From Deltaproteobacteria bacterium (GTDB taxonomy: Bacteria > Bdellovibrionota_B > Oligoflexia > Oligoflexales > Bog-1112): DNA of 20,278 nt. The notes beneath the pieces are model-generated. The model was not told the origin of the DNA. It worked only from the letters and a program-made list of their open reading frames with translations, and did no database searches. Every line of letters begins with the position of its first letter. Position 1 is the stretch's first letter. The stretch is from positions 1 to 20,278 of the forward strand of contig JACPKR010000046.1 of assembly GCA_016186945.1 (NCBI GenBank). The letters run 5' to 3'. A program made the translations under genes and the position numbers. Below, one piece after another: positions 920-20,278 of the stretch.

Positions 920-3271
920 TTACTCAGCTTCCTCAGCTTCGATAAGACCGATGAGGCGGGTGTCGAAGTCGGCCTGAGCCCTCGTAAGCGCATCCAAAGC
1001 ATCCACCAGCTGAGGTTCCCAATAGCCCCGACCCTCGCTTAGAAACTGCCCGCAGGGAATTTCCCTCGCCCCACCGGCTAGAGATTGAGCAGCTGTGGCT
1101 ATAACCGCAGAACCGATGATCATCGCAATGATACCTGCCGCCATCTTCAACTTGGGGATACCAGCACCACCCCGAATATAACGGCCGCTGATTCCACCCT
1201 CTGGAAGAACCACCGACGTTCTACGCACCGCTCCGCCAGCATCAGCGGTAGCTTTGGGGGGATCGATAGGGTCAGGGGCCTCGCCTCTGAATTTACTTAA
1301 CTTCTCGTCCCCTAGCTCAGAAACGGCGGTGCCTCTCGTCAACTTATATTCTGCACCCTGTTTACCTGGCAACGTGACGTCCTGGTCCGCTTTTACCTTC
1401 AGTTTACCTGTGTCATCTGCCTCGATTTTACCGTACTCCGTTAACCTCGCCTCCCAACCGGCCTTCGTCTCTGCATCGTCCATTGCTCCTGCCAGTCGGT
1501 TACCCTTCGCGACGGAGTCGCCATATTCGGCTCCCTTCCCTTCTGCTATCATCGTTCTAAGCTCTGTCTCGATCTCAGTAAGTTGTGTATGTCGGGTCAT
1601 ATCTGGATCGACCACCAGCGTAGCCTTCTGGGATCGAAGCCACGTTCCTTCTTTAATATCTCCTTTGCCTAGGGCTTCCCCTGCGCGGAATGTTTCGCCT
1701 TCGATAACAACCTCCTTTGTCACTTTAATGCCAGCTCCAGACTTTTCAAAACTGGTGTATCGCTTCTCAATTTCGTCCACTTGTTTTTTGTAAGTTTCCG
1801 CGTTTTCTTTTCGAACAGCTTCCGGCAGGCGATTGAAGTCAGTTTCCATGAGTCCGAGGGTCTCCCTAATTTTTTTCTGAGCTATTGCAAATTTCTCTCC
1901 GTCATTATTTGCTAAAGCTAGGTTTGCTTTCCCGACCTGACTATTGATTTCTCTAACATTGTATGCGGCGCTCTTGGCGAATTCAAACTTGCTCCCTAAT
2001 AAGCCACGTGCCTTGGAACTGAGCGTAGTCCCCGTAATTTTTTGAATAAACCCCGCGGCAAACAGTGCGGCTCCAGCAACTAATACACCAATCCCAATGT
2101 TGATGTGTTTTTGCTTCTCAGCTTTTTCATCCTTCTTTTCATCAACGGGCTTTATGTCGACGGAATCGTCCCCATCACCAGTATCGGGACCAGTCCCTGT
2201 GCCTGTACCAGTCCCTGTGCCTGTACCAGTCCCTGTGCCTGGCGTACTTGCGGGGGGGGGTGTCTTGCCTTCCTTGGAAGCTTCACCTCCGCCCTTGCCA
2301 CCAAAAAGGTCTCCGAAGTCATCTCCGCCCGCTCCTGCAGGTGCAGCACCTTCTGCAACGGCAGTGGGTGGACAGGCTGTCCCTCCTGTAAGTCCTAAAG
2401 CTGTCTGTTCTTGCTGTGCACCCTCAAGAATTGCATTGCTGAGGTCCTGCATTTCGTAACCGAATTGCGTGACGATATTTGCTGTTGTTGAGGGCTGAGT
2501 ATTTTTAATGTTGATGGCAAATTGCAGGTCAGCAGACGATGCTGGCATTTCCTGCTCGCAGAGGGCTACATAGGCTCTGGCATCGGTGTCATAGCCTTCA
2601 GAAAGAGAAAGCATTTGAGCTTTTTTCTCTTGCAGCGTTTTTGCATATGCTTTCAGTTGGGGGTCGATGGGAAGACTATCCAATTTAACGGTTTTTGAGA
2701 TCGCTTTTCCACAATAGCAGGGTTTTGTCATGGAGCAGGGCGCACTTCCAATAGCTTCCACTTCTCTATTCACATCTCCGACGAGGATGGAGATGTCATG
2801 GACGCATGCTCGCATGGTGAGTGTTGCGAGCCCCGAGGGAAAGTCAGGAATATCCTCGATTGTGAATTCGTAGACTTTGGCCCACTTTCCGTCATTCGCA
2901 CAGTTTGATCCGTCTATCTGACAAGCTTTCCAAAGGAGGAAGATCTCGGGAATATCGACTGGTTCGTCCCCTGCCAGCGCTAGACTTGAGTGTCGAGCAT
3001 GAGAGGAAGCGTCAAAGTAAATCTGCGTTGTGTTGGCAGCCAGTCCATAACTTGTCGTTGAGACGTCAATATCTTCTTTTTTGAGAGTCAGCGCATCCAA
3101 GGCTAATTTGGGGGCTTCTGTGCTCCCCACATCTTCTGCTGTGGCCACGGGGCACTGGCCCGTTAGTGCCGCGGGGGGAGCGCGTTTCACATCTGGTTTC
3201 TTAGCTTCCTTAGCGCAGGAGAGCGGAAAGGCGAGAATCGCCAGGAATATGATTTGCTTGCGGATGCTCAC
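920..3271 (-). CDS. Large membrane lipoprotein with six-cysteine framework, unknown function
   Basis: A GTG at 3271 preceded by GAAGGG gives a 783-residue protein. The upstream in-frame extension has a TTG start and runs through a repeat, so I reject it. Residues 1-19 form a lipoprotein signal ending FPLSC, with Cys19 as the lipid site. There follow a cysteine-rich domain (about 60-190), a helix ending VALCEQ (Cys238), a Gly/Ala-rich linker with a pure Gly-Thr run (about 345-361), an acidic/lysine stretch, and TM1 (about 389-410). Next comes a 290-residue loop with helical and beta parts, TM2 (about 708-730), then Cys740 and a C-terminal helix. It shares this layout with the two lipoproteins at 8807-11226. 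No known family is recognised. If the two TMs form a hairpin, the loop would be cytoplasmic; that is inference. Confidence 0.85.
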   Translation of the reverse strand: MSIRKQIIFLAILAFPLSCAKEAKKPDVKRAPPAALTGQCPVATAEDVGSTEAPKLALDALTLKKEDIDVSTTSYGLAANTTQIYFDASSHARHSSLALAGDEPVDIPEIFLLWKACQIDGSNCANDGKWAKVYEFTIEDIPDFPSGLATLTMRACVHDISILVGDVNREVEAIGSAPCSMTKPCYCGKAISKTVKLDSLPIDPQLKAYAKTLQEKKAQMLSLSEGYDTDARAYVALCEQEMPASSADLQFAINIKNTQPSTTANIVTQFGYEMQDLSNAILEGAQQEQTALGLTGGTACPPTAVAEGAAPAGAGGDDFGDLFGGKGGGEASKEGKTPPPASTPGTGTGTGTGTGTGTGTGPDTGDGDDSVDIKPVDEKKDEKAEKQKHINIGIGVLVAGAALFAAGFIQKITGTTLSSKARGLLGSKFEFAKSAAYNVREINSQVGKANLALANNDGEKFAIAQKKIRETLGLMETDFNRLPEAVRKENAETYKKQVDEIEKRYTSFEKSGAGIKVTKEVVIEGETFRAGEALGKGDIKEGTWLRSQKATLVVDPDMTRHTQLTEIETELRTMIAEGKGAEYGDSVAKGNRLAGAMDDAETKAGWEARLTEYGKIEADDTGKLKVKADQDVTLPGKQGAEYKLTRGTAVSELGDEKLSKFRGEAPDPIDPPKATADAGGAVRRTSVVLPEGGISGRYIRGGAGIPKLKMAAGIIAMIIGSAVIATAAQSLAGGAREIPCGQFLSEGRGYWEPQLVDALDALTRAQADFDTRLIGLIEAEEAE
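2189..2242. repeat. Three tandem 18-bp repeats encoding a Gly-Thr linker
   Basis: Three copies of an 18-bp unit, ACCAGTCCCTGTGCCTGT on the plus strand, with the last differing at its final base. On the minus strand each encodes GTGTGT, giving the alternating Gly-Thr linker of the large lipoprotein. The unit length is a multiple of three, so copy-number change would alter linker length without a frameshift. Confidence 0.9.
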
Positions 3272-3347: not shown

Positions 3348-3426
3348 GGGGGAGGCGACGCTTCCCTCGCCCCCCCCCAAACCCCCCTCTCCCTTTTTGC
3401 CCTTAGTGGCTTATGTGTTACGTAAC
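3348..3426 (-). repeat. Dispersed repeat module B, copy 1 (G-rich)
   Basis: Read on the minus strand, this matches 8648-8717 on the plus strand over about 70 nt. Shared blocks are GTAAC, TAAGCC, a GGC/GCC mini-stem, then AAAAGGGAGAGGGGGGTTT, a long G run (9 here, 7 in the other copy), CGAG.GAAGCGTCGC and TCCCC. It ends 77 nt before the GTG of the large lipoprotein, in the same orientation relative to that gene as copy 2 is to the lipoprotein pair. It also abuts the ribosome binding site of nuoB on the other strand. A degraded module A may follow on the lipoprotein side, but I cannot establish that by eye. Confidence 0.8.
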
Positions 3427-3435
3427 GAGGAAAAC

Positions 3436-3924
3436 ATGAAACATCAGACAAGCGCCTTGGAACAGATACTTTTCACCACGAGGCTCACGGATTTACTCGC
3501 CTGGGCGCGGAAGAATTCCCTGTGGCCTTATGTCTTTGGAACGGCCTGTTGTGGGATTGAATACATGTCGGTCGTAGGGCCGAAGCATGACGCTGCCCGC
3601 TTTGGCGCTGAAGTCGTGCGTTTCTCCCCCCGGCAGGCAGACTTGCTTATCGTGGCAGGAACCATCAGTGAGAAGATGGGCCCCGTCGTAAAAAAGGTCT
3701 ACGAGCAGATGTCAGAACCCAAGTGGGTGATGGCGATGGGCGCTTGTGCCGCGAGTGGAGGGTTCTACCGCGCCTATCATGTGTTGCAGGGGGTGGATCA
3801 GGTGATGCCGGTCGACATTTACGTTGCCGGATGTCCTCCTACGCCTGAGGCTGTTTTAGCAGGGCTTTTAATGTTGCAGCAGAAAATTCAGAGTGAGGCG
3901 CGACCCCGGAAAACGATGGCTTGA
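3436..3924 (+). CDS. nuoB: NADH-quinone oxidoreductase subunit B (NuoB), stand-alone
   Basis: A 162-residue protein of the NuoB/PSST family, which holds the terminal iron-sulfur cluster N2 of respiratory complex I and passes electrons to quinone on the cytoplasmic side of the inner membrane. All cluster ligands are visible: the tandem cysteines in [11 protein letters not shown], the cysteine in [11 protein letters not shown] and that in [10 protein letters not shown]. The opening [12 protein letters not shown] is also typical. I start at the ATG at 3436, 5 nt after CGAGG. The longer frame from 3346 translates repeat DNA into a proline-rich leader and is not credible. No other nuo gene is in the window, whereas nuoB usually sits between nuoA and nuoC. 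It converges with the ATPase gene, with stops 11 nt apart. Confidence 0.9.
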
Positions 3925-5127: not shown

Positions 5128-5165
5128 CTCCCCTCCCTTTCCGCCCCAAAAGGCTTACGCCTTAC
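5128..5165 (+). repeat. Partial dispersed repeat (end of module B) across a stop codon
   Basis: About 38 nt resemble the last part of module B as seen on the plus strand in copy 1: CTCCC, a TTT stretch, GCCCCAAAAGGCTTACG, then TTAC. The GCC/GGC mini-stem is kept. The stop codon of the permease gene (5155-5157) lies inside it, so the last codons of that gene are repeat-derived or the repeat has eroded into it. The match is short and the assignment moderate. Confidence 0.45.
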
Positions 5166-7164
5166 TCTCCTTTGCTTCCCTCCTACGAACCTTGAAAAGG
5201 GCTGCGACGAAACATCCCCCGACAATCAGCAAAGCTTGCGCCAGGAGAGTCTCCCAGAATGGGTAGATGCCAAGGACATCCAAGGAAGGCAGGAATTCGA
5301 CCGGACTTGCTTTGAGGTAACCCGCTTCGACCAGTTCCTTCACCGTCTTACCAGCTAGGATGACAGAAAGAAGGATCATGAGAAGGCTGGTGACTCGAAA
5401 AAACTGTTTCAGAGGGATGCGCACATTGAATTTGAGGATGGCAAAACAACCCAGGAGCAAGGTTACAAGTCCAGTGGAAAAGCCACCGACCACCATCCAA
5501 TCATTGTGGGAACTTGAGAGCAAAGCCGCATAGAAAAGTATCGTCTCGGCAGCTTCTCGAAACACGGCGATGAAGGACATGCTGAAAAGCACCCAAAGTT
5601 TGCGGGAACTGATGGCATGGTTTGTTTTTGTTCTGATGTACTGCTGCCATTTCTTCTGTTCGGACTGACTCAGCAACCAGAAGCCTGTGTAAAACAGCAT
5701 GGCAACGGCCAAGCCTGTGCAAAACGCTTCGATTGTTTCTTTCGCAGCGCCGGAAATTTTAAGTACGTGTTCAAACAAAAAGTAAGCAAGCACTCCTGTA
5801 AAAATTGCAGACACCCACCCTGCGTGAATCCACTTACGGGCATAGTGGGCACCAAGATTTTTCACAATCAAGAGAAGTGCAACGACGATGAGAAAAGCCT
5901 CAAGACCTTCTCGTAAAATAATGAGAAGAGCGCTCAGAAAGTCACCGTTAAAAAGGGAAGGCGTCTCTGATTTCTTGTGAAGTTTATCGTTTGCTTTCTG
6001 AAGAAGGCTCTCAAGTTCAGCTATGCTTCTATCGAAAGCAGCACTATCTCCTTTTCCCGCAAACCCTCTTGTAGCGGAAAAGCTTCGTTCAATGTCCGAC
6101 ATCAGCTGTTTGTCCACAAGCGCCAGTGCAACTTCCACATGTTCAAAACCTTCCAGGTAGGCATCCAGCAAAGTCCCCTGCGTCTCTGACGTCAAGCCAT
6201 TGTGAAACTGGTCTTTCGCTTTTTGCACACTGGCTGAGATAAAATCCCAATGCGACTTGGCTTCGTTTGATGGGACTTCCTTTTTGCCTCCTTCTTCCAC
6301 AGGCAGCCGTGGGTCATAAGGGGCAAGAAGGCGAGCGTAAGCGATGTGAGTCTTCTGTTCGCTTGGGCTGAACTGCACGTAGGCTGGCAGATTATTTTCC
6401 AACCACTCGTGAAGTTCTTGATCGGAAGCCTTTGCCAAAAGAGGGAGGGACAGGTTTGCCGGAGGAATTTCCTGAAAAACTGCGGGGGAGGAGTCTTCAT
6501 AACGTAGACCGAGCATGTAGAAACTTACACTCCACAGTTCCTGCACTGACAAATGAGGGAATCCCACCATCGCTGTGTTTTCAATTCCCGTTTCTGTCGA
6601 GTTGTAAAACTTGAAGGGGGAGGCCAGGGCCATGTACTCATCGTCATGGAAGCTGCGGGGCTGTGGTTTCAGGCCCCTCGCTCCGGGGCCATCGCCTCGG
6701 CCATCGTTTCCGTGACAGACGGCACAGTTTTTTTCGAAAACCTGTTTTCCCAACGTACGATCTGGGTGTGAAGGAGGTGAGGACGGAATTTGGAGACGTT
6801 CTATGATGAGGTCCTTTAGGGTAGCGGTTCTATGGAGAATCTCGGAGTAATCACATTTCTCCAGAATGCAAAGGCGGAGGGCATGAAGATTTTGGCTGAT
6901 CGAATCCTGTGGATTCAGGTTTCTTTGGGTCGCCACCCGCTGGAAGATATTGGCCGCAGCTTCTGAGAATTCCTGCATTTCTGCGAATTCTTCCTTATCG
7001 ACGACAGCCCCTTTTTTTACCGCCTCAGGGTAGTCGCCCCGGATATATTCGATGAGGCCTAGAAGGCGTTTTCCCGCCTTTTCAGTAGATTCGGATGCAA
7101 TGAGTTTCGATGTGAAAAATCCCCAACCGGCTGCTATTATGATTAAGAACCACTGTCTTGCCAT
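5155..7164 (-). CDS. Cytochrome c / FTR1 family iron permease
   Basis: A 669-residue fusion. Residues 1-23 form a signal or anchor segment. Residues 24-125 are a helical periplasmic region. A class I cytochrome c domain spans about 135-225, with heme motif CAVCH (147-151) and a likely axial methionine at 199 (TAMVGFPHLS). Residues 240-400 are another helical periplasmic region. The FTR1 permease domain (about 408-655) has some seven hydrophobic segments and both iron-binding REXXE motifs, REGLE (418-422) and REAAE (536-540). The family imports iron across the inner membrane. The fused cytochrome plausibly takes electrons from ferrous iron before transport, as the partner oxidases do for EfeU/Ftr1; that role is inferred. 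AAGAAGGAAC precedes the ATG. A Fur-box-like site lies 22 nt upstream. Confidence 0.93.
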   Translation of the reverse strand: MARQWFLIIIAAGWGFFTSKLIASESTEKAGKRLLGLIEYIRGDYPEAVKKGAVVDKEEFAEMQEFSEAAANIFQRVATQRNLNPQDSISQNLHALRLCILEKCDYSEILHRTATLKDLIIERLQIPSSPPSHPDRTLGKQVFEKNCAVCHGNDGRGDGPGARGLKPQPRSFHDDEYMALASPFKFYNSTETGIENTAMVGFPHLSVQELWSVSFYMLGLRYEDSSPAVFQEIPPANLSLPLLAKASDQELHEWLENNLPAYVQFSPSEQKTHIAYARLLAPYDPRLPVEEGGKKEVPSNEAKSHWDFISASVQKAKDQFHNGLTSETQGTLLDAYLEGFEHVEVALALVDKQLMSDIERSFSATRGFAGKGDSAAFDRSIAELESLLQKANDKLHKKSETPSLFNGDFLSALLIILREGLEAFLIVVALLLIVKNLGAHYARKWIHAGWVSAIFTGVLAYFLFEHVLKISGAAKETIEAFCTGLAVAMLFYTGFWLLSQSEQKKWQQYIRTKTNHAISSRKLWVLFSMSFIAVFREAAETILFYAALLSSSHNDWMVVGGFSTGLVTLLLGCFAILKFNVRIPLKQFFRVTSLLMILLSVILAGKTVKELVEAGYLKASPVEFLPSLDVLGIYPFWETLLAQALLIVGGCFVAALFKVRRREAKESKA

Positions 7165-7204: not shown

Positions 7205-7250
7205 ATTTAAAGACGGCTGTCTCGACAAAGTCTTTTGGGCATTTGTAATC

Positions 7251-7310
7251 TTGGAGGAACCAGCTGCGCAGTTTCCTCCAAACCACCTCCTTGCCACAAG
7301 CGGCTTACGC
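7251..7310. repeat. Dispersed repeat module A, copy 1, with partial B tail
   Basis: The hairpin arms TTGGAGGAACC (7251-7261) and GTTTCCTCCAA (7271-7281) pair with one mismatch around the loop AGCTGCGCA. The common tail AAACCACCTCCTTGCC follows, then a GCC/GGC mini-stem and GGCTTACG as at the end of module B. It occupies most of the gap between rtcB and the iron permease gene. Neither strand has a T run after the stem, so it is not a standard terminator. Confidence 0.75.
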
Positions 7311-8647: not shown

Positions 8648-8717
8648 GTAACCCGTAAGCCCTTTGGGGCCAAAAGGGAGAGGGGGGTTTGGGGGGGCGA
8701 GTGAAGCGTCGCTCCCC
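8648..8717 (+). repeat. Dispersed repeat module B, copy 2 (G-rich)
   Basis: The counterpart of the minus-strand element at 3348-3426. It begins GTAACCCGTAAGCCC, has a GCCC/GGGC-type stem, then GGGAGAGGGGGG (8676-8687), TTT and seven G (8691-8697), followed by GCGTCGCTCCCC. It ends 90 nt before the ATG of the first lipoprotein of the pair and has the same orientation relative to it as copy 1 to its lipoprotein. The four G-runs satisfy the simple G-quadruplex pattern. Confidence 0.8.
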
Positions 8718-8726
8718 AGGGAATTC

Positions 8727-8770
8727 TTGGAGGAACCAGCCGCGCAGGTTCCTCCAAACCACCTCCTTGC
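8727..8770. repeat. Dispersed repeat module A, copy 2
   Basis: A perfect 11-bp stem, TTGGAGGAACC (8727-8737) with GGTTCCTCCAA (8747-8757), around the loop AGCCGCGCA, then the shared tail ACCACCTCCTTGC. The two bases that spoil the stem in copy 1 are paired here. On the minus strand the tail reads AAGGAGGTG, a full match to the ribosome-binding consensus. Confidence 0.8.
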
Positions 8771-8806
8771 CCCCAGCTTTCACTCATTTTCCGGAGATCA
8801 TTAGCC

Positions 8807-10090
8807 ATGGGCGTTTCTATAATTAAAAGACCGGGGTCCCTTCGAAACACAGAAACACCGATTCTTTTGGTGGCCCTGCTTTTGATCTCATGTCGGACGA
8901 AGCGGATGGAAGTTCCCGAAGAGCCACTCGCAAAGCCAAGTCTTGCTGGGCTAGCACTCCTCAGTGAGGAGGACGTGTCGGCTCCCCGGATGGTGCATGC
9001 GATCAAGCTGGACGACATCGACTTTCGCGTGAGTGGGGTGCGCGTAGGGGAGCAGGTATTCTTGCAATACAAGACGCCGGTTCTAACGTACGAGATGCCT
9101 GCGATTGCTGATTATGTCGAAATCCTGCGCTGTCCGAGCGATCGCATCATCATGGGGGGAGCCGACATTTTGGAGGACGTTGAGCGGAAAGCGATGACTG
9201 CGGAAGAAGAGACTCGCATTTTCCGGGCGAATAATTTCTGGGAGATGGCCGTGCAGACGTCCGGTTGTATTCTTGTGGCCTCATCATACTCGGACCCTTT
9301 CCTTGCTGACAGTTTCGCGGAGACGGGGACTTACTTCTACTACTTGCGAGCGTGTATAAACCCCAAGCGTTTGATCGGCTTCGAAACGTTCACGACCACC
9401 AATTGCAGCCGACAGGTGACCCGTTCCGTTGAATACAAGCACGTGAATGAGCGAGACCGACTGGAACTTCTTGCCTTGCAGAAAGCGTCACGACTGCGCC
9501 AGAGGATGCACGGTTTGAGTCGGCAAATCGTCGCAGGTACGCAAATCTTCGGGCAGACGCTCCTTGATTGTCAGAACCGCAAAGGCAAGCAGGTGGTCGA
9601 CAACGAGCAAAAGGAAGCCTTGCGTGACATCATCACCTTTGCAGGAGGTATCGGGGGAGGGGCTGCCATAGGCACTGCGGTGGGTGCCATGCGGGCAAGA
9701 CCTGGAGGTCGAATCGTCGGGGGCTTGAGCGGCATGGCAATAGGTGCTGTCGGGGGGCTTTTCGCCTCCTACCTTGCGAATGCCATCGACCGAGCGTTCA
9801 TACGAAAACCAGAGGTCGTCGTCCCCAGAGATGAGGAACGGTGCTACAGTGTTAAAGAGGAAACACTGGCAGCGGATGCGCTGGAAGAATATAAAGGCGA
9901 GAAGAAACACGCTTCTAATGTCTGCAGCTGTTCTCATGCCATCACCATGCAAACGAGAATTCAAAATCAGAAAAAAGAATTGGACCAACTGATGGGCATG
10001 GAGAAAGATATCTTTGGAAAATACGAAGGTCCCCAGGAGTCTGAACCAGGGACGGGGACTGAACCCGAAACCACAAAGGAAAGTCCATGA
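8807..10090 (+). CDS. Glycine-zipper lipoprotein with six-cysteine framework, unknown function
   Basis: 427 residues; ATG with GGAG about 10 nt upstream. The signal peptide ends LLLISC, with Cys29 as the lipid site. A beta-rich domain follows with Cys109 (EILRC), Cys154 (SGCILV), Cys183 (YYLRAC) and Cys200 (NCSRQVTRSVEY). A long helix ends at Cys255 (LLDCQN). Two glycine-zipper membrane segments (about 277-295 and 301-324: GGIGGGAAIG, GGLSGMAIGAVGG) come next, then Cys346, a helical tail with CSC (373-375) and a Gly/Thr/Pro-rich end. The same order recurs in the next gene and in the 783-residue lipoprotein. It ends in an ATGA overlap with the next gene, so the two are made together, perhaps as partners. 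No known family is recognised. Confidence 0.87.
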   Translation: MGVSIIKRPGSLRNTETPILLVALLLISCRTKRMEVPEEPLAKPSLAGLALLSEEDVSAPRMVHAIKLDDIDFRVSGVRVGEQVFLQYKTPVLTYEMPAIADYVEILRCPSDRIIMGGADILEDVERKAMTAEEETRIFRANNFWEMAVQTSGCILVASSYSDPFLADSFAETGTYFYYLRACINPKRLIGFETFTTTNCSRQVTRSVEYKHVNERDRLELLALQKASRLRQRMHGLSRQIVAGTQIFGQTLLDCQNRKGKQVVDNEQKEALRDIITFAGGIGGGAAIGTAVGAMRARPGGRIVGGLSGMAIGAVGGLFASYLANAIDRAFIRKPEVVVPRDEERCYSVKEETLAADALEEYKGEKKHASNVCSCSHAITMQTRIQNQKKELDQLMGMEKDIFGKYEGPQESEPGTGTEPETTKESP

Positions 10091-11226
10091 AATTTTGGCT
10101 CCTCACTGCCTTCCTCTGGCTTCTATCATGCAAAGAGGGAGTGGAAATCACGAGAAAAGAACCGGCACCAGCTCCTTCTGCACCTGCTCCCAGTTTAAAT
10201 CTGTTTGACCCCAACACCGCCAAAGTGGGTGTCTCTCCCGTGACCGTAGAAGCACGAGATTTCGGGGAGAAGTTCAAAAGCCCCACCTTCGAGATCACTT
10301 ACACGGTCAACAACTTCGTTCGCATTCTGAGGTGTGAGGCTGGCTACCGTGATTTCCTGGAAGAGCGCCTTGTTGAAGTCGAGAGCGTCAAAAAACTGGA
10401 CGACCGGAAATGGGTGTGGGCAGACGCATTTGGTGCCCCCAAATTCTGCAAAATCGCTGCGATTCAAAGCATGGCTACAACGTTTCAAGACATAGCTGCA
10501 CCCAACGGCAATTTCTTCTACGTCATCAACCCCTGCGTTTCTAAGGAAATGTCAACGACCGGCAAGGAAGACTGCTCAAACTTCCTGACAATGACGGACG
10601 TGATTGAGTACAGAAGTGCTCTTTCCAATACCTTCCTGCAAAAGGCAGCTGAGTTGGCGGATGCTGAGGGCGCATACGACGCAATTGTAGCAAGGCTCAA
10701 CGGACTCGTCGGAAACCTGGCAGCTTACAAGGAAGCCTGTCAACTCAAGTTCGAGTATGAGCAGGAACAATTCCAACGTGAAGAAAACGCCAAAAAGTAC
10801 GAACAAGCGATGGGTGACATTTACACCGTCGCAGGCGCAGGTGGGGCCGGGGTCTTGACCTATATGGCAGCCAGGCAGTTAAAACACCTGGCAACAGGTG
10901 TCGGGGCTATTCGGCGCACAGGCCAATTCGTGGGCCGAAATCCGTTCCTGGTTGCAGGAACAGTGTTCACAGGTGCCCTCGTCATTTCCACACTGATCCG
11001 CCGAAGCATGGCATCTCCAGGTTCCGCTCCCCAAGCGAACTGTAGCAAGGCAGAGGAATTCGCCAGCGAGATTCTTAAAATTCAAAAGAGTGGAGAACTG
11101 GACCAAGCAAAAGCCAAACTCATCTCCCTGTCAACGGAACTCCTGGCCCTCGACAAGGAGTTTAGAGGCTACGACGAGCTGATGTTTACGGCAACAGGTC
11201 TGGAAGGAAAGACTCCAGGGGAGTAA
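10087..11226 (+). CDS. Paralogous membrane lipoprotein, unknown function
   Basis: 379 residues starting within the ATGA of the preceding stop. A short lipoprotein signal, MKFWLLTAFLWLLSC, has the lipid site at Cys15, then an Ala/Pro linker. The cysteine domain follows the upstream protein: Cys83 (RILRC), Cys121 (FCKIA), Cys150 (FYVINPC) and Cys163 (DCSNFLTMTDVIEY). A helix ends at Cys218 (YKEACQ). A charged coiled coil follows, then two hydrophobic segments (about 247-262 and 285-303), Cys319 and a helical tail. Cys2-Cys3 (29 residues) and Cys4-Cys5 (55) spacings equal those of the upstream protein. This supports paralogy despite low overall identity. It may form a complex with its coupled neighbour; that is inference. 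Confidence 0.87.
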   Translation: MKFWLLTAFLWLLSCKEGVEITRKEPAPAPSAPAPSLNLFDPNTAKVGVSPVTVEARDFGEKFKSPTFEITYTVNNFVRILRCEAGYRDFLEERLVEVESVKKLDDRKWVWADAFGAPKFCKIAAIQSMATTFQDIAAPNGNFFYVINPCVSKEMSTTGKEDCSNFLTMTDVIEYRSALSNTFLQKAAELADAEGAYDAIVARLNGLVGNLAAYKEACQLKFEYEQEQFQREENAKKYEQAMGDIYTVAGAGGAGVLTYMAARQLKHLATGVGAIRRTGQFVGRNPFLVAGTVFTGALVISTLIRRSMASPGSAPQANCSKAEEFASEILKIQKSGELDQAKAKLISLSTELLALDKEFRGYDELMFTATGLEGKTPGE

Positions 11227-11817: not shown

Positions 11818-11867
11818 TTGAGGGAAACCAGCTGCGCAGTTTTCCCTCAAACTCCCTTCCTTGCTTC
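11818..11867. repeat. Dispersed repeat module A, copy 3 (variant stem)
   Basis: The arms TTGAGGGAAACC (11818-11829) and GTTTTCCCTCAA (11839-11850) pair with one mismatch around the same loop AGCTGCGCA as copy 1. The tail is ACTCCCTTCCTTGC. Both arms differ from copies 1 and 2 in a compensating way. The stop codon and last codons of the upstream gene (ending 11847) lie inside it. Confidence 0.75.
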
Positions 11868-20082: not shown

Positions 20083-20155
20083 AGCTGACGAGAAAAGCCG
20101 AACTTAGTGTGCGAAATTTGCCTACAGAGAAGAGAGCCATTGTAATTGGGAGTCT

Positions 20156-20278
20156 GTCATCCCGCGGCTACCGTCATCCCGCGGCTACCGTCATCCCGCG
20201 GCTACCGTCATCCCGCGGCTACCGTCATCCCGCGGCTACCGTCATCCCGCGGCTACCGTCATCCCGCGGCTACCGTCA
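20156..20278. repeat. Perfect 17-bp tandem array, continuing past the window
   Basis: Seven identical copies of GTCATCCCGCGGCTACC plus four further bases reach the right edge. There are no spacers and no base differences between copies. The unit is not a multiple of three, so it is unlikely to be coding. Each unit holds the palindrome CCGCGG. The start GTCATCCCGCGG resembles half of the REP-like palindromes known from several bacterial genomes (the Rickettsiales, for example). Confidence 0.95.

Follow-up and report, generated by a model that had tools for sequence, protein, structure and literature searches.

A co-encoded pair of lipoproteins in Oligoflexia, with a predicted fibronectin-III fold and probable partner subunits in the cell envelope

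The window, by which we mean the whole 20,278-nucleotide stretch of DNA analysed here, carries two overlapping genes on its forward strand, A and B, whose products (P0002 and P0003) are lipoproteins, and a gene for a third, larger lipoprotein, P0001, 5.5 kb away on the opposite strand. The coordinates, lengths and lipoboxes given for all three in an earlier note on this DNA were right. The lipoboxes read LISC/R in P0002, LLSC/K in P0003 and PLSC/A in P0001, and all 17 A homologues and, as aligned, all 18 B homologues keep the lipobox cysteine. The pair is laid out as follows:

8807-10090, plus strand: gene A (P0002, 427 aa), a lipoprotein with a predicted FnIII-fold domain, a long helix, a glycine-rich hydrophobic hairpin and a C-terminal helix
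9002-9445, plus strand: A residues 66-213, predicted fibronectin-III fold with a helical insertion at about 115-150 and Cys1-Cys4 (AlphaFold2 pLDDT about 90; VIA-align Z about 9)
9449-9661, plus strand: A residues 215-285, predicted long helix bearing Cys5 (255) (AlphaFold2 model; Cys4-Cys5 spacing)
9629-9769, plus strand: A residues 275-321, hydrophobic glycine-rich hairpin with the basic loop RARPGGR (hydropathy 1.47 and 1.64; low pLDDT)
10087-10090, plus strand: ATGA overlap of the A stop and the B start
10087-11226, plus strand: gene B (P0003, 379 aa), a paralogue of A
10249-10626, plus strand: B residues 55-180, homologous to the A FnIII domain (hhalign), with Cys1-Cys4 at 83/121/150/163
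10816-10998, plus strand: B residues 244-304, hydrophobic segments, of which the second alone is strong

From the ATGA overlap we infer that A and B are translationally coupled. The neighbours of the pair in the window are rtcB, an FTR1/cytochrome c gene, a ybaK-like gene and a Bat/MoxR-type operon. At 5155-7164 a cytochrome c domain is fused to an FTR1/EfeU-type iron permease, and a lone nuoB (3436-3924) lies between P0001 and an ATPase gene, with no other nuo genes in the window. Two small genes at 380-917 overlap by 11 nt; the first is BrnT-like by eye and the second is a weak match to the BrnA antitoxin (23 bits, cut-off 60), so that they probably form a toxin-antitoxin pair. Dispersed intergenic repeats are REP-like and stand beside several genes. 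They include a 50-nt inverted pair (3372-3421 and 8648-8697, 86%) and a 53-nt direct pair (7249-7301 and 8725-8777, 92%) with a third, partial copy at 11826-11855. A 17-nt tandem repeat (GTCATCCCGCGGCTACC) occupies 20139-20278 and reaches the end of the window.

The earlier note had proposed that A and B share one framework, and profile comparison bears this out. By blastp the two proteins are 24% identical over 421 aa (E about 1e-9 in a database of 4 sequences), and a profile of 17 A homologues matches one of 18 B homologues with an hhalign probability of 99.8 (E 1.5e-29). Residues 55-252 of P0003 are aligned with residues 64-284 of P0002, also at a probability of 99.8. In a tree of 47 proteins, one single branch (99/96) splits all A from all B, which points to an ancient duplication. 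The genome has a second A-B pair, on contig C43, which obeys this split as well as the first. Judged by profiles and tree, A and B are ancient paralogues of one family that have been kept as an ordered pair.

When 383 genomes were searched with the A profile (E 1e-4), 18 were positive, all of them among the 58 genomes of the window's own class, taken from relatives to be the Oligoflexia. Named records that matched include an Oligoflexales MAG and one of an uncultured Silvanigrella, which are both Oligoflexia, and no family matches were found in the plasmids and phages searched. The order A then B is conserved, with a 4-nt overlap in many homologous pairs. Relatives with the same gene order, which had been put forward as expected support for a family, thus exist in 18 of the 383 genomes.

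The cysteines lie at 15/83/121/150/163/218/319 in P0003, at 29/109/154/183/200/255/346 in P0002 with an additional C-S-C at 373/375, and at 19/40/117/124/156/179/185/187/238/300/740 in P0001. The positions in the earlier note were accurate apart from the omission of 373/375 in P0002. Its choice of Cys 346 as the sixth cysteine of P0002 is ambiguous, as the invariant cysteine of the alignment is the one at 375 and a PR motif precedes 346. The spacings of 29 and 55 residues that it had pointed out are real, and the second is not due to chance, being near-invariant across homologues: Cys4 and Cys5 are 55-56 residues apart in 16 of 17 A and all 18 B homologues. In the C family, a group of related lipoproteins to which P0001 is assigned below, the spacing is 51-54 in 17 of 30 proteins, P0001 included (51). 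A Cys4-Cys5 spacing of 51-56 residues ahead of a hydrophobic segment can serve as a simple diagnostic of the superfamily.

A disulfide between Cys5 and Cys6 that clamps the hairpin, as suggested earlier, fits the distribution of these residues. Each of the 17 C proteins with Cys5 has a cysteine in the interval 28-45 residues ahead of the C terminus, where none of the 13 without Cys5 has one (p 8e-9, for an interval picked post hoc); for any cysteine in the last 70 residues, the counts are 17/17 and 4/13 (p 5e-5). Several C proteins without Cys5 have two cysteines instead, about 36 and 75 residues past Cys4, and the A homologue of the second pair on contig C43 has lost Cys5 and kept Cys6. The co-occurrence in the C paralogues thus speaks for the bond, but the hairpin region was modelled at pLDDT <50 only and lends no contact support. 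Among the C proteins, an N-terminal linker cysteine (C40 in P0001) tends to accompany a cysteine about 98-130 residues past Cys4 (C300 in P0001), as seen in L045, L083, L081, L082 and P0001, and L037 is missing both. An extra disulfide between these two positions is possible in such proteins.

The AlphaFold2 model of P0002, made from 14 sequences, has a domain at about 62-200 with pLDDT about 90, a helix at 215-285 and a C-terminal helix; the hairpin (pLDDT <50) is unreliable. When residues 66-213 were compared with known structures by VIA-align, the matches were almost all FnIII domains (Z 8.6-9.3, rmsd 2.1-3.3 over 87-99 residues), among them those of titin, fibronectin and cytokine receptors. 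The rank-1 row (BBSome, rmsd 11.4) was disregarded as meaningless. Foldseek E-values for the domain were weak, the best being 6.6e-3, and Pfam fn3 matched none of the members scanned. With high confidence, we assign the modelled N-terminal domain of A to the fibronectin-III fold. By homology, it follows that B should carry the fold as well. The fold search gave no match for the hairpin and tail, which we do not take as a sign of a new fold, and a sequence search of solved structures returned weak coiled-coil matches for A (E 0.15 or worse).

P0001 has the following parts:

920-3271, minus strand: P0001 (783 aa, GTG start), assigned to the expanded C family within the superfamily of A and B
2672-3109, minus strand: residues 55-200, a cysteine-rich beta domain, putatively FnIII by homology only
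2042-2098, minus strand: residues 392-410, hydrophobic segment 1
1145-2041, minus strand: residues 411-709, a variable insert without cysteine, predicted to be cytoplasmic
1088-1144, minus strand: residues 710-728, hydrophobic segment 2, followed by Cys6 (740) and a helical tail

The membership of P0001 in the family was tied to a third group of sequences. A P0001 profile of 4 members had no significant match to the A and B profiles. With more members, the P0001 group matched the C family at 92.7-92.8% (E 4e-7), and C in turn was matched by A at 96.1% (E 3e-9) and by B at 90.8% (E 1e-6); reversed and column-shuffled control profiles gave at most 3.8%, and at most 2.4% for the link between P0001 and C. 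That P0001 is unrelated to A and B, with a cysteine pattern arisen by convergence, would agree with the weak direct matches of its group (0.4% to B, 52% to A) and with the poor model of its domain, but it leaves unexplained the 92.8% link through C, far above its controls, as well as the same order of cysteines and a Cys4-Cys5 distance of 51 residues; we consider it improbable. Since the C family bridges P0001 with A and B, P0001 is best read as a more distant sibling of the C type and not as a third A/B copy. The earlier claim that it belongs to the family is therefore upheld by way of C (91-96%), but not by a significant direct match. Its domain model (mean pLDDT 53) was too poor for a fold search. 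The shared fold that the earlier note had looked for is thus predicted for A and, by homology, to be expected in B; homology through the C family suggests that P0001 may have it too, though more weakly than for B.

The two hydrophobic segments differ in strength among the three proteins. Mean hydropathies are 2.05 and 2.15 in P0001 (strong), 1.47 and 1.64 in P0002 (moderate) and 0.97 and 1.94 in P0003, which has one weak and one strong segment; in A and B homologues, the second is usually weak. Two membrane segments per protein, as had been described, are thus clear in P0001 and moderate in P0002, but P0003 has only one that is strong. The stretch between the segments of P0001, estimated before at about 290 residues, measures 299. 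Seventeen C proteins have two strong segments, with no cysteine between the helices, and in these the fraction of K+R is 0.181 on the insert side and 0.096 outside (Wilcoxon p 4e-4, with paralogues that are not independent). Basic residues flank the cytoplasmic side of membrane segments (the positive-inside rule), so that the insert of these strong-pair C paralogues is probably cytoplasmic and the protein placed in the inner membrane. The bias was tested on the C paralogues only and is uninformative for A and B, whose segments are weaker. With their weak second segment and poorly modelled hairpin, A and B perhaps do not cross any membrane.

These data bear on two other views of where the proteins reside. 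They might be Lol-sorted surface adhesins of the outer membrane, or an alpha-helical pore in it, in which the glycine-zipper hairpin crosses the outer membrane, the C inserts lie outside and the role resembles that of TasL. Nearly all lipoboxes lack Asp at +2, the A and B hairpins are glycine-rich, and TasL is itself a fibronectin-repeat lipoprotein proposed to reach the cell exterior (PMC9040878), all of which would suit such a location. However, the helices of the C paralogues are of the classical hydrophobic type, reaching a hydropathy of 2.6, and their insert side is basic, as expected for the inner membrane, and we regard an outer-membrane site as rather unlikely. Alternatively, the proteins could be lipid-anchored periplasmic coiled-coil proteins whose hydrophobic segments pack in a helical bundle and cross no membrane. 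This is easier to reconcile with the low-confidence hairpin model and the weak second segment of most A/B homologues than with the strong paired segments and charge bias of the 17 C paralogues, and we rate it as unlikely.

In several families, further lipoprotein genes precede the A-B pair: D, of about 480-560 aa or split into two shorter ORFs, and C, of 350-470 aa. A single locus holds D, C, A and B in families f1 (G002), f2 (G008), f7 (G020) and f12; as an exception to the pairing, one locus (L086, on contig C69 of G052) has D then B without a recognised A. Of the 18 A-positive genomes, 16 also contain D, which the other 40 genomes of the class all lack, and robust C matches were confined to A-positive genomes; this co-occurrence was counted among related genomes, so that the cases do not count as independent. 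Within the family of the window itself, D and C mostly have an operon of their own and C is expanded: one profile detects seven loci in this genome, in addition to the P0001 group. For D, a sequence search of solved structures found nothing. One genus has a third lipoprotein between D and C (L060 8389-9567, L062 6648-7796, L089 11402-12619), which by eye shows a VWA-like motif (DTSEN); its L060 copy had no Pfam match. A Pal-like gene adjoins the operon in two lineages, but not at a constant position, and the genes around it have housekeeping roles; an association with Pal was therefore rejected.

No conserved and informative neighbours were seen beside the C paralogues. A reading of the proteins as contact-dependent toxins or bacteriocin-like glycine-zipper proteins with polymorphic inserts would make use of the variability of the C insert and of a pre-toxin domain to which one A member is weakly similar (E 0.049). 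The inserts nevertheless contain no toxin domain and no recurrent immunity-like gene accompanies the C paralogues, and we give this reading hardly any weight.

Our best overall explanation is one superfamily that forms a multi-subunit lipoprotein complex of the envelope with expanded C subunits, its function being inferred; we see about an even chance that it is correct as a whole. Signal peptidase II would lipidate the N-terminal cysteine, and the FnIII domain, helix and tail would come to lie on the periplasmic side, where DsbA-type oxidation could create local disulfides: in the FnIII loops between Cys1 and Cys2 and between Cys3 and Cys4, and between Cys5 and Cys6 as a clamp on both ends of the hairpin. 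C proteins such as P0001 are envisaged in the inner membrane, with the stretch between their helices, up to about 360 residues, in the cytoplasm. Translational coupling of A and B may favour a hetero-oligomer. Since several families have the four genes D, C, A and B in a single operon, it could also hold D and a C subunit. Such a complex might serve the envelope as a scaffold or receptor, with a partner bound by the FnIII domains, going by the fold only, and the expanded C paralogues might be its exchangeable membrane-spanning subunits. The co-encoded FnIII lipoprotein pair probably has D and C subunits as its working partners in the envelope. A more specific form is doubtful: an Oligoflexia-specific D-C-A-B machine with a fixed A/B core and one of several C subunits per genome with differing cytoplasmic inserts, in which disulfide-clamped hairpins link the periplasmic FnIII domains to the cytoplasm.

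About a dozen members of this unannotated superfamily, with a recurring set of partners, occur in one 2.7-Mb genome. Annotators could build a family model from them, and for experiments the operon is a defined target. The class is akin to the predatory bdellovibrios, and little is known of the biology of their envelope.

Neither Pfam nor NCBIfam has a model for A, B or P0001, no description of the family was found in the literature searched, and none of the domain, neighbour and literature searches names a function. Together with the profile links of A-B and C, this supports the earlier suggestion of an undescribed family: an unnamed, lineage-restricted superfamily of envelope lipoproteins, seen among 383 genomes in Oligoflexia only. 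The glycine zipper 2TM lipoproteins (PF05433; YiaD family NF053611) likewise combine a lipobox with a glycine-rich hairpin. However, single members match them only below threshold (YiaD 16.1 bits, cut-off 175; one B member E 0.0055), and no OmpA-like domain was found in these proteins. TasL of Vibrio, a large lipoprotein of a T6SS cluster with five fibronectin-like repeats near its C terminus (PMC9040878), is also an envelope lipoprotein with fibronectin-like domains. In contrast, the present proteins, of 380-780 aa, have a single such domain at the N terminus, besides a hydrophobic hairpin and a paralogue in tandem, and the window holds no T6SS genes and thus no TasL-type cluster. The closest likeness in fold is to the FnIII domains themselves, on which A residues 66-213 superpose with Z about 9 and rmsd 2.1-3.3 over about 90 residues; A differs from them by its helical insertion, four conserved cysteines, lipid anchor, long helix and hydrophobic hairpin.
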